Shown here: positions 17,224 to 42,670 of the stretch, piece by piece | How positions within the stretch are numbered: the first letter of the stretch is position 1 | Layout: every line of letters begins with the position of its first letter | DNA from: Chloroherpetonaceae bacterium | Lineage (GTDB): Bacteria; Bacteroidota; Chlorobiia; Chlorobiales; Thermochlorobacteraceae | NCBI GenBank assembly: GCA_025055975.1 | Contig: JANWWM010000075.1 | Coordinates: 1-64,000, forward strand | Direction: 5' to 3' | DNA: 64,000 bases | Made by a program: the position numbers and the translations under genes | Notes under the pieces: model-generated | The model's input: the letters and a program-made list of their open reading frames with translations, nothing else | Told to the model about the DNA's origin: nothing | Databases searched by the model: none

Positions 17224-17622
17224 ATGTCCGTCAAACCGAAGTTCGTCGTCGGGTTCGTCGTCATCGTCGCCGTGTTGGCTTGGCTTGGCTTCACGGCGCA
17301 AGAATGGGGCAACAGCGCGATTGGCTACGCCACCATTTCGGAAGCCGCGAAAAGCGGAAAACTGGCTTACATCAAAGGCTATTGGCTCAAAGAAGAACCC
17401 ACCGAAACCAATCGCAACGTGTTCACCTTTTACCTCAAAGACGAAGAGGGCAACGTCGCTCGCGTGATTTATCGCAACGGCAAGCCGAACAACTTCGAGC
17501 AAGCCACGAGCGTCGTCGTGCAAGGCAAATGCGAAAACGGCACGATTTACGCCAAAGACATTCTCGTCAAGTGCCCGTCGAAATACCAGTCCGAAAAGGC
17601 GGATAGCGAAAAGAAAATTTGA
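17224..17622 (+). CDS. ccmE: Cytochrome c maturation protein CcmE (heme chaperone)
   Basis: 132 aa; single TM then OB-fold-like FTFYLKDEEGNVARVIYRNGKPNNFEQATSVVVQGKCENGTIYAKDILVKCPSKY. Confidence 0.9.
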   Translation: MSVKPKFVVGFVVIVAVLAWLGFTAQEWGNSAIGYATISEAAKSGKLAYIKGYWLKEEPTETNRNVFTFYLKDEEGNVARVIYRNGKPNNFEQATSVVVQGKCENGTIYAKDILVKCPSKYQSEKADSEKKI

Positions 17623-17625
17623 ACG

Positions 17626-18001
17626 ATGGTTCTATGCCGAAACCTTTTGTTTGAAGGCGCGAAAGAGGCGCGCTCGCCCAGAACGCTCTTCGACAGCGGC
17701 GCGAGTTGCTCTTGCGTCCGCCAAGACGTCGCCGAGGCGCTGACGATTCTCATTCCGCCGAAAAATCCGCTCAAACTTTATGCGGCTTCCGAAGGACATT
17801 GCCTTGAAATTCTCTTCCGAGCGGCGCTTGATTTTTTACTACGAAGACGTCCGATTGAGCGACGAGTTTCTCGTCGCGCCAAGCCTTTCGGAAGAGGTCA
17901 TCATCGGCGCGTCGACGATGCAAAAGTGGCGCATCAAACTCAACTTCGAAGCCGATGCGATTGAAATTCCGCCAACCGCCAAAACCGCGATTTTGAAGTA
18001 A
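17626..18001 (+). pseudogene. Retropepsin-like aspartic protease gene split by a frameshift (pseudogene, sequence error or recoding)
   Basis: Frame 1: TLFDSGASCSCVRQDVAEAL...AALDF; frame shifted by one nt: YYEDVRLSDEFLVAPSLSEEVIIGASTMQKWRIKLNFEADAIEIPP; junction at T6 17832-17837. Confidence 0.75.
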
Positions 18002-18019: not shown

Positions 18020-20338
18020 ATGATGTCAACGCTGATGGAATTTTTCACGGGCAAGTTCGTAACGATCGTGGGCTTTTGCGCCGCGCTCGCCGCGACTTAC
18101 GCCTTCTTCCGCGCCGCCCAAAACGACGACGCAAAGCCCGTCTACGACGAGTGGCTCTCGCTCGCAAGAAAGAGTTTCTTCGTGATGATGATCGCCATCG
18201 TCGTCAATGGGTTTCATCTCCTCTATCTGATTCTCACGCACCAATTCCAATACAACTACGTCAAGCATTACTCCTCGACCGACCTCAACGTCTTCTACCT
18301 CATCTCCACGTTCTACGCGGGGCAGGAAGGCAGTTTTATGCTGTGGATGTTTTATGGCGGTCTCTTCGGATTGTTCTTGATGAAAACCGCGAAGGAATAC
18401 GAAGCACCCGTGATGACGGTTCTTTCGCTCTCGCAAGCGTTTTTGCTCTCAATGATTTTGGGCATCGATATGCCGTTCCTCAAAGATGGAATCGGAAGCG
18501 ACGTCTTCGCGCTCACGACGGGACCCGTTCCCGAAGAAGGCGACGGACTAAATCCGCTGTTGCAAAACCCTTGGATGGTGATTCACCCGCCGACGCTGTT
18601 CGTGGGCTTCGCTTCGCTCATCATTCCATACAGTTACGCCATTGCGGCGATGTGGAAAAACAAATACGACGATTGGATTCGCCCCGCGACGCCGTGGGTC
18701 TTGTTCAGCGCGGCGACGCTCGGCATTGGGATTATGATGGGCGGCTACTGGGCGTATAAAGTGCTCGGTTGGGGCGGCTATTGGGGCTGGGATCCCGTTG
18801 AAAATTCGTCGCTCGTGCCGTGGCTTTTGGTCGTGGCGCTCATTCATACGCTCATCGTGCAAAAGAAGAACGGCGCGCTCAAAAAAACGAATTTGCTTTT
18901 GGCGACGCTCGCGTTTAGCGCGGTGCTGTATAGTTCCTTCCTCACGCGCAGCGGCGTTTTGGCGGATACGTCGGTGCACTCCTTTACCGACTTGGGTTTA
19001 TACAATCAACTCTTGGCTTTCGTTTTGGTCTTCTTGGGGCTTGGAGTTGGTTTGCTCGTGATTCGTTTCAAGTCCATCAAAGTCGTCTCGCGCGACGAAT
19101 CGATTTACTCGCGGGAATTTTTCTTGCTTTGCGGGGCGGTCGTTTTGACGCTCATCGCGGGCGTGGTGGTTGCGGGCATTTCCACGCCCATCGTGGATTC
19201 GCTCCTAAATCGCCCCATCACGAAACTCGAACCCGATTTCTACAATGAAGTAACGCTTCCGCTCGCGGTTCTCATCGGGTTTCTGTCGGCGATTGGGCAA
19301 TCGATTTGGTGGACGAAAATCGATCGCGACAATCTCTTCAAAGCCTTGTGGCTTCCGTTTGCGCTCGCCCTCGTTTTCACGAGCGTTTTGATGCTTGCGG
19401 GAATGAAAGACGTCTCGATGATTTTGCTCGCGCTCGCCGCGTCGTTCTCGCTTTTCGCCAATGGGCAAGTTCTGCTCAAAGTCCTGAAAGGCAATCCGAA
19501 ATACGCGGGCGGCAGTCTGACCCACGTCGGCTTGGGCTTGATGTTGCTTGGCATCATCGGTTCGGCGAAATACGACCAAACGCAACATCTCGAATTGCCA
19601 AAAGGCAAAACCGTTCAAGCCTTCGGCAAAGAGATGACCTACGCGGGAATGCAAGACGTTGGCGGCGGCAAGAGCGGGTTCAAAATCGAGGTGCGCGACG
19701 GAAACAAGTCTTATGTCGCAATGCCGATAATGTATGAAACCAAGCGAATGACGGTGCAAAACCCCGACGTCGCGCATTATCTCACGAAGGATTTTTACAT
19801 CGCGCCCGTCAATGTGATGATTAAAGACAATCCGAATCAACTCATCTTGAAAAAGGGCGAATCGCAAACGCTTGAAGGCTACGTGGTGAAGTTCGTCAAC
19901 TTCAACATGGAAAAAAGCGTTCTGGGCGGCGGCGTTGACGGCAAAATCAAAGTCGTGGCGATTTTGGAGGTTTCGAAAGACGGCAAGACCGAAACCATCG
20001 AGCCTGTCTATCTCATTCAAGCGGGAAGCGCGCCCATAATCGAATACGCTTCGCTTCCAAGCGCGCCAAACGTGTCGTTTGCCATCACGCGCATCGATGC
20101 CACGAGCGGCAAAGTGATGGTCGAAGCCAAAGGACTCGGAACGAACTTCGAGCCGCAAGAAACGCTCATCGTCGAAGCGAGCGTTAAGCCTTTCATCAAC
20201 GTGCTTTGGCTCGGAACTTACGTGGTGGCGATTGGCTTCGTCGTCTCGATCTATCGTCGTTGGCAAGAACGCAAGTTAAAGGCGCGAAGCGCGCTCGTCG
20301 CCGAACCCATCGCCGATAAAAATCCCGTTGCGCTATGA
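18020..20338 (+). CDS. ccmF: Cytochrome c biogenesis protein CcmF/CcsA family
   Basis: 772 aa; WGGYWGWDPVENSSLVPWLLVVALIHT, GQEGSFMLWM, FLTRSGVLADTSVHSF. Confidence 0.92.
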   Translation: MMSTLMEFFTGKFVTIVGFCAALAATYAFFRAAQNDDAKPVYDEWLSLARKSFFVMMIAIVVNGFHLLYLILTHQFQYNYVKHYSSTDLNVFYLISTFYAGQEGSFMLWMFYGGLFGLFLMKTAKEYEAPVMTVLSLSQAFLLSMILGIDMPFLKDGIGSDVFALTTGPVPEEGDGLNPLLQNPWMVIHPPTLFVGFASLIIPYSYAIAAMWKNKYDDWIRPATPWVLFSAATLGIGIMMGGYWAYKVLGWGGYWGWDPVENSSLVPWLLVVALIHTLIVQKKNGALKKTNLLLATLAFSAVLYSSFLTRSGVLADTSVHSFTDLGLYNQLLAFVLVFLGLGVGLLVIRFKSIKVVSRDESIYSREFFLLCGAVVLTLIAGVVVAGISTPIVDSLLNRPITKLEPDFYNEVTLPLAVLIGFLSAIGQSIWWTKIDRDNLFKALWLPFALALVFTSVLMLAGMKDVSMILLALAASFSLFANGQVLLKVLKGNPKYAGGSLTHVGLGLMLLGIIGSAKYDQTQHLELPKGKTVQAFGKEMTYAGMQDVGGGKSGFKIEVRDGNKSYVAMPIMYETKRMTVQNPDVAHYLTKDFYIAPVNVMIKDNPNQLILKKGESQTLEGYVVKFVNFNMEKSVLGGGVDGKIKVVAILEVSKDGKTETIEPVYLIQAGSAPIIEYASLPSAPNVSFAITRIDATSGKVMVEAKGLGTNFEPQETLIVEASVKPFINVLWLGTYVVAIGFVVSIYRRWQERKLKARSALVAEPIADKNPVAL

Positions 20339-20823: not shown

Positions 20824-20909
20824 TCGCTTGAAGCAAAAAGGCGAAACGCAAACGGAGTTTCGCTTCGCCCGGAATGGCGATGAGACGCTTGGCGCGAACA
20901 AGCGTCCAG

Positions 20910-20935
20910 GTCATTCTGAACGAAGCGAAGGATCC
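20910..20935 (+). repeat. Dispersed ~26 bp repeat
   Basis: GTCATTCTGAACGAAGCGAAGGATCC. Confidence 0.75.
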
Positions 20936-20998
20936 GCTGCGCGCAAGCAAGAGCGTTCAATTCGCTCGATAATCTCAATCCGCGATTCGCGGCGCAAC

Positions 20999-22898: not shown

Positions 22899-23124
22899 TT
22901 TTGCGAGCTTGCAGAATTCGTCGCAAGATAGCAAAAGGCGCGCGAGCGTTCAATGCGCGTAGCGGCGCTATCTTCAAGCCAAATCTTTCGTCGCGGGCAA
23001 CCGCGCTGGTCGCGTCGTGAGCGCAGAGACGGTTTGTCGCTTTTCGGGCGTTTCATTCCGAGCGTTTGCGTCATCATTCCGAGCGTAGCGTTTTTCGTCG
23101 TTGCGAGCGTTTTTCATTTTTCTC

Positions 23125-23150
23125 GTCATTCCGAGCGAAGCGAGGAATCC
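23125..23150 (+). repeat. Dispersed ~26 bp repeat
   Basis: GTCATTCCGAGCGAAGCGAGGAATCC. Confidence 0.8.
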
Positions 23151-23253
23151 ATTGAATTGCGAATTTCGCGTCGCCAGTGGCGATGGAACGCTCTGGCTTC
23201 GCTGAACCGCGTTATGTCGTAATTTGCCAACGCAACCCAATTCATCGTTGCGA

Positions 23254-26567: not shown

Positions 26568-26666
26568 ACCCTGCGACATTCGCCCCCTTTTTCTCTTGCG
26601 TTGCTGCCAAAAATCGCGCTCGATGCGCCTGAAATCGCTTGACGCGGACGCGCGAACCTGCAGCGC

Positions 26667-26735
26667 GTCGTTCTGAACGGAGCGAGGAAGCCATCTGCGC
26701 GCCCTTGCGGATTCCTCGCTCGCGCTTGGAACGAC
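26667..26735. repeat. Inverted-repeat element (REP/MITE-like)
   Basis: GTCGTTCTGAACGGAGCGAGGAAGCC ... GGATTCCTCGCTCGCGCTTGGAACGAC, imperfect inverted arms. Confidence 0.8.
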
Positions 26736-26767
26736 AAAGAAAAACGCTCGGCGCGACAAAGCCCCCA

Positions 26768-26793
26768 GTCATTCTGAGCGGAGCGAAGAATCC
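26768..26793 (+). repeat. Dispersed ~26 bp repeat
   Basis: GTCATTCTGAGCGGAGCGAAGAATCC. Confidence 0.8.
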
Positions 26794-26991
26794 ATTTTCG
26801 CGCGAGCAAGAATGTTCAATTCGCAATTCACAGCCTCAAATTCTACGGTTCGCAGATTCCTCGCTCAAGCATAGAGCGTTAGCCATAAAACTTTTCTTGA
26901 CGAAAACTTAACGATAGTTTAACCGACCGCCAATCAAGGCGTGGTTAACTTTGCGTTGCCAAAGCAAACTACCTGCGGAGGAAGACGAACA

Positions 26992-32732: not shown

Positions 32733-32852
32733 AGCGAAACGCTTGGATTGGTTTTAGGTGATTTAAGGTTGAACGGTTGAACAAATTTTGAAAAATCGTC
32801 CGCGAACTTCGGATTGTCAACTGCGAATCGAACGCTCTCGCTTCTCCGAACT

Positions 32853-32939
32853 GGATTCTTCGCTCCGTTCAGAATGACAATTTCGCTTCGTTCAAGAATG
32901 ACAAGGCTTTGCCGTCATTCCGAGCGTGGCGAGGAATCC
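32853..32939. repeat. Inverted-repeat element
   Basis: GGATTCTTCGCTCCGTTCAGAATGAC (32853-32878) and GTCATTCCGAGCGTGGCGAGGAATCC (32914-32939). Confidence 0.8.
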
Positions 32940-32990
32940 ACGAATTGCGAACTGTCAATTGCGAATTGACCGCGCTCGTCTCTCCGAACT

Positions 32991-33016
32991 GGATTCTTCG
33001 CTCCGTTCAGACTCAC
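32991..33016 (-). repeat. Partial copy of dispersed repeat
   Basis: GGATTCTTCGCTCCGTTCAGA followed by divergent sequence. Confidence 0.65.
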
Positions 33017-41659: not shown

Positions 41660-42670
41660 ATGAAACGCGCCTTTTGGTTGATGGCGATCGCGCTTTTCGC
41701 GCCCGTTCTTCGCGGGCAACTTTTTCCCGCCAAGCAAGGCGGCAAGTGGGGCTACATTGATAGGAACGGCGCGCTCGTCATTGCGCCGAAGTTCGATGAC
41801 GCGCGAGGCTTTTCGGAGGGACGCGCCGCCGTCAAAATCGGCGACAAGTGGGGCTACATCGACGAGTCGGGCAACCTCGTCATTCAAGCGCGCTTTTCCA
41901 ACGCCGAACCCTTTTCGCAAGGCTTTGCCGCCGTTCAGACCAAAGATTTCATCGCGGGAACGTCCGCCTCGTTCATTCGCCCCAACGGCGAGGCGCTCAC
42001 GAGCGAAACCTTCACGGAAACAGGCTCTTTCTCCGAGGGCGTGGCGTGGTTCAAAATCGCCGACCGCAGCAAAGTCATCTTGCGCCAACGCTACGGCTTC
42101 ATTGATGCGACGGGCAAGGTCGTCGTTCAGCCCGTTTTGGAACGCGCCTTCAACTTCTCGCAAGGACTCGCCGCCGTTCAGTTCGACGACAAGTTTGGCT
42201 TCATTCGCCTCTCGAACGTCATCAACGATTCGGTTCAAACGTTCGCCATCGCGCCGAAGTATCGCTTCGCAGGCTCGTTCTCGGACGGTTTGGCTCGCGT
42301 GAGAACGAAAGACAAATGGGGCTACATCGATTCGAGCGGCGCGCTCGTCATCGCCGAGCGATTCGACGCGGCGAGCGATTTTAGCGAAGGCTTGGCGAAA
42401 GTTCGCGTCGGCGAAAAATTCGGCTTCATTGATCGACGTGGCGAGGTCGTCATCGCGTTGGAATTTGAATCGGCGGGCGATTTCAGCGAAGGCTTGGCGT
42501 GGGTTTGCAAGAACGGAAAGTTTTTCTACATCGATCGCGAGGGCAAACCCGTCATTGACATCGGGCTGACGGGCGCGAGCAGTTTCAAGAACGGACTGGC
42601 GCTCGTGAGCGCGGGCTCCAAGCAAGGCTACATCAACAAAGAAGGCAAATTCGTCTTTGAATTCAAGTGA
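41660..42670 (+). CDS. WG repeat-containing protein
   Basis: Repeats GGKWGYIDRNGALVIAPKFDDA, GDKWGYIDESGNLVIQARF, KDKWGYIDSSGALVIAERFDAA. Confidence 0.9.
   Translation: MKRAFWLMAIALFAPVLRGQLFPAKQGGKWGYIDRNGALVIAPKFDDARGFSEGRAAVKIGDKWGYIDESGNLVIQARFSNAEPFSQGFAAVQTKDFIAGTSASFIRPNGEALTSETFTETGSFSEGVAWFKIADRSKVILRQRYGFIDATGKVVVQPVLERAFNFSQGLAAVQFDDKFGFIRLSNVINDSVQTFAIAPKYRFAGSFSDGLARVRTKDKWGYIDSSGALVIAERFDAASDFSEGLAKVRVGEKFGFIDRRGEVVIALEFESAGDFSEGLAWVCKNGKFFYIDREGKPVIDIGLTGASSFKNGLALVSAGSKQGYINKEGKFVFEFK

Follow-up and report, generated by a model that had tools for sequence, protein, structure and literature searches.

A clan AA retropepsin-like gene between ccmE and ccmF of a Chloroherpetonaceae bacterium, its reading frame broken at a T6 run, very probably by a non-programmed one-base insertion

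Retropepsin-like proteins of clan AA are covered by several Pfam domains (PF13650 Asp_protease_2, PF13975 gag-asp_proteas, PF00077/PF08284 RVP), with which the gene reported here shares the D-S-G-A catalytic motif, the hydrophobic-hydrophobic-Gly motif (as IIGA) and the length of one domain, but from which it differs in being frame-broken, with halves that fall below the Pfam cut-offs. The closest solved structures are the retroviral-like protease domains of Ddi1 and ASPRV1 (4rgh, 7d66, 27jk; TM about 0.7), and ASPRV1 is the closest by profile (E 1.6e-11). These domains are, however, eukaryotic and parts of larger proteins, with about 12-16% identity over the fold match, and the likeness implies neither a ccm role nor a bacterial one. 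The periplasmic RloA retropepsins of Pseudomonas (9g58; PMC12239564) are likewise bacterial and retropepsin-like but match poorly in structure (TM 0.46), and they carry a signal peptide (PMC12239564), whereas none is evident by eye in the present gene. In a literature search on clan AA retropepsin-like enzymes in bacteria, only this RloA work looked relevant (PMC12239564), and no study was found on the function of small stand-alone retropepsin-like proteins. TIGR03698 clan_AA_DTGF belongs to the same broad clan and matched 5 of 14 relatives at E <= 0.01; the first, intact relative stayed well under its cut-off (24.9 against 57.35 bits) and is thus not a member by that test.

Here, we describe a stretch of 64,000 nucleotides (the window) in which positions 17626-18001 are one clan AA gene, whose reading lies in frame 1 before a T6 run and in the +1 frame beyond it (Table 1). 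Its ATG at 17626 lies three bases past the ccmE stop. Frame 1 reads TLFDSGASCSC...AALDF, with the DSG motif among the native residues, and its out-of-frame tail has Arg or Lys at 14 of 42 residues. The +1 frame reads YYEDVRLSDEFLVAPSLSEEVIIGASTMQKWRIKLNFE, encodes the IIGASTMQKW half and ends with the TAA at 17999-18001. A preliminary description made from the letters of the sequence had placed a retropepsin-like protease gene between ccmE and ccmF, which the present analysis bears out. It had also put a one-base frame break at the T6 run, and relatives do match the two halves at consecutive residues; the intact clan AA homologues that it had advised looking for exist, in a single frame and collinear with both halves.

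Table 1. Features at the ccmE-ccmF locus, in window positions
Feature	Coordinates	Strand	Remarks
ccmE, upstream neighbour	17224..17622	+	Intact; matches ccmE of three congeners in a single HSP (131 aa, 88% identity)
Frame-1 ORF, retropepsin-like gene	17626..17964	+	112 aa: residues 1-70 native, then 42 out-of-frame
T6 run, site of frame break	17832..17837	+	Codons ...GAT TTT TTA...; relatives GAY TTY TAY in frame
+1-frame continuation	17837..18001	+	54 native C-terminal residues, motifs SDEF and IIGASTMQKW, stop TAA
Hairpin 3' of T6	17858..17876	+	8 bp, GCGACGAG-TTT-CTCGTCGC
ccmF, downstream neighbour	18020..20338	+	Intact; matches three congeners over 755 aa at 87-88% identity

With the C-terminal piece as query, 84,980 species genomes yielded 35 loci. 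Most belong to Bacteroidota, both MAGs and isolates (among them Chitinophagaceae); others come from Ammonifex, Peptococcaceae, Latescibacterota, Thermoplasmata and Methanophagales. Where the sequence is long enough, the relative is almost always a single-frame protein of about 125 aa; three loci depart from this: L055 is cut off at a contig end, L050 includes masked sequence, and in L057 the frame itself diverges well past the site matching the T6 break. The intact relatives, from Bacteroidota, Firmicutes, Latescibacterota and archaea, run collinear across the break. Compared with the window by tblastn, relatives' proteins give two HSPs that abut at T6, frame 1 covering residues 1-70 and the +1 frame about 68-123, and identity to the Bacteroidota relatives is 33-45% before the run and 66-73% after it. 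A +1 shift at T6 restores exactly the reading of the family, ALDF-YYEDV. Profile search of the source genome found both halves as adjacent hits and no second good copy, the gene being single-copy there. This clan AA family occurs four times in one MAG, CSMAG_1063, with the copies on different contigs (L052-L055).

The D-[ST]-G motif of the family is present in frame 1 as FDSGA, and F22, D23 and G25 are invariant in an alignment of 23 rows (A3) that includes the window read-through. The hydrophobic-hydrophobic-Gly motif is missing from that chain, IIGA being encoded only in the +1 frame, and the two are found in one protein only if the frame break is unreal or bypassed. Only the read-through protein is predicted to form the one-domain beta fold of about 100-125 aa, its model having a retropepsin fold (pLDDT 90.5, pTM 0.84); its best PDB folds are Ddi1 protease domains, and retroviral proteases are found too. 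For PF13650, PF08284 and PF00077 an intact relative scores above the curated threshold. Intact members are most simply read as predicted homodimeric aspartic proteases, and they are probably cytosolic. Apart from the place of its gene in the operon, nothing seen here ties the retropepsin-like protein to cytochrome c maturation.

In three congeners, about 70-90 bases separate ccmE from its neighbour ccmF, and that interval holds no trace of the retropepsin-like gene. The gene was found in none of the 8 other genomes of the family, in none of 97 other genomes searched in the order, and in 2 of 394 other sampled genomes of the phylum, of which one matches only distantly. Of the other five family members, G001 carries an unrelated ORF in the gap from ccmE to ccmF, so that this spot seems to accept insertions; for G002 the stretch taken held no ccmE hit. 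The ORF layout around the relatives differs from locus to locus. This absence in the lineage and the variable layout argue for the acquisition of a single gene, and the gene is most likely an accessory one that this species acquired between ccmE and ccmF, presumably by transfer; its codon use is already host-like. The pattern within the family points to the Chlorobiales as host order, probably near Thermochlorobacter or a similar genus. Small stand-alone retropepsin-like proteins turn up sporadically across bacterial phyla and archaea, next to varying neighbours; this suggests that they spread by transfer of the gene alone. A conserved operon partner hinting at function was rejected on the variable layout around the relatives, judged by ORF layout rather than neighbour family. 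A phage or plasmid origin was likewise rejected, as the C-terminal ORF had no tblastn match in phages or plasmids and viral contigs held no confirmed relative. As for the ccm loci of the family at large, the ORF between ccmE and ccmF in G001, another genus, has an apparent signal peptide (L062, G001:C9:78000-86000). In a further member (L066, G007:C2:61000-69000) ccmF lies in four pieces in different frames and ccmE gives two overlapping hits, which suggests an error-prone assembly or decay there.

The frame break in the window is very probably an unprogrammed insertion of one base, due to a recent mutation that made a pseudogene or to an assembly or sequencing error; these two, with recoding, are the rivals that the preliminary description had correctly listed. 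An extra T in a former T5 run would turn GAT TTT TAC into GAT TTT TTA, and no programmed event would correct the frame. The additional base would have come from recent replication slippage in a dispensable gene or from a consensus error in the assembly, with roughly equal chances. Translation as written would give residues 1-70 followed by 42 wrong ones, a product without the second half of the fold and its conserved IIGA motif, which should be inactive. The downstream half is undamaged: all 16 conserved columns are kept and its 54 codons run without a stop; this argues that the insertion is recent or not real, and we infer a recent origin for it. The authors of GeneTack regard frameshifted singletons with intact homologues as sequencing errors or recent indels, and they hold that most singletons validated by BLAST will be errors (PMC3711429). 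GeneTack would class the window gene as a singleton with validated homologues, hence as an error or a recent indel.

That the gene is a true recent pseudogene, acquired, dispensable and lengthened by one T through replication slippage, has very nearly an even chance. It accords with the absence of the gene from all relatives searched in the order and with changes in 4 of 14 conserved columns of the N-terminal half, among them position 14, a Gly invariant in alignment A2 that is now Glu while DSG is kept; the asymmetry to the C-terminal half is small. It also accords with an assembly that is sound elsewhere in the window, where 15.6 kb of orthologous coding sequence compared with a congener show no frame break despite 13 A/T runs of 6 or 7, so that the assembly is not generally homopolymer-prone. 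On the other hand there is no second lesion, and the C-terminal half is conserved as well as in intact relatives. The same 15.6 kb count against an assembly or sequencing error, in which case the organism would carry T5 and an intact, working gene. We put this somewhat short of an even chance, given a source assembly in 92 contigs that is 85% complete, the lack of any lost conserved column downstream of the run, and what the GeneTack authors expect of validated singletons (PMC3711429).

Recoding had been raised as a third option, and we consider it very unlikely that the full-length protease is made by programmed +1 frameshifting at UUU-UUA, where the rare Leu codon would be hungry, or by slippage of transcription on T6. 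The shift does give the exact family reading, the A-site TTA is as rare as had been supposed (15 of about 1,700 Leu codons, 0.9%, in 36 long ORFs), and there is a hairpin downstream (z = -2.15). By the refuting condition set in the preliminary description the option fails, however, since the relatives are intact and single-frame and do not conserve T6. The conserved residues at the site are L-D-F-Y, encoded GAY TTY TAY, and the longest T run in 33 relatives is 5 in 15 of them and 2-4, being shorter or broken up, in 17; the one with 6, a Peptococcaceae locus (L047), holds the run in frame (CTT CTT TTT TAT). None of the 33 has a frame break at the site, and neither a slippery motif nor a shift site is conserved among them. 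The rare TTA gives recoding no independent support, because one T put into TTT TAC gives TTT TTA: a rare codon beside a homopolymer mimics a recoding site, and caution is due where a one-base insertion before TAC makes such a codon automatically. The hairpin, about 20 nt 3' of the run, is a by-product of the codons GAC GAG TTT CTC GTC, within those for SDEFLVA; folding is weak in the relatives, which form no hairpin of similar strength, and it was rejected as a frameshift stimulator for this lack of conservation. T6 is also shorter than the A/T runs of about 7-9 or more on which slippage depends by thresholds measured in other bacteria: with E. coli RNA polymerase slippage is undetectable on fewer than seven Ts (PMC6260861), and in bacterial genes selection against A/T runs typically appears at nine (PMC1088944). 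The U-UUU-UUA heptamer had rightly been called a -1 site, the wrong direction for the downstream frame. Less likely still is a +1 frameshift at UUU-UUA confined to this species and driven by the rare Leu codon, which would tune the output of the acquired retropepsin from the cytochrome c maturation operon. Least likely of all are two translationally coupled genes, for a 112-aa protein and for a 73-aa protein whose frame ATG 17780 would open, as the pieces are consecutive parts of one fold that match one relative end to end, with no recognisable ribosome-binding site at that ATG and first residues unlike the family.

A possible second one-T shift had also been proposed near 17650. Relatives begin MIIRLPLRFEGSKGE... 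or MSVIKLPLLFAGSKGE..., and frame 1 of the window, which from ATG 17626 begins MVLCRNLLFEGAKEA, aligns gap-free with relatives, for instance MIIRLPLRFEGSKGE, from their first residue. By codon log-odds trained on 36 window ORFs, frame 1 scores highest at 17631-17675 (7.5 to 11.9 bits per 15 codons), and the MPKPFV frame near 17650 reaches only 0.2 and -3.4. Alignment and codon score together make a second frameshift superfluous, and it was ruled out.

Two kinds of repeat are found elsewhere in the window. A REP-like dispersed repeat around GTCATTCCGAGCGAAGCGAGGAATCCA occurs at 20904-20936, 23119-23151, 26661-26693, 26762-26794 and 32908-32940, and also inverted near 32849-33016. At 41743-42484 a 70-nt unit is present in four copies, in the gene of a KWGYID-type, WG-repeat-like protein.
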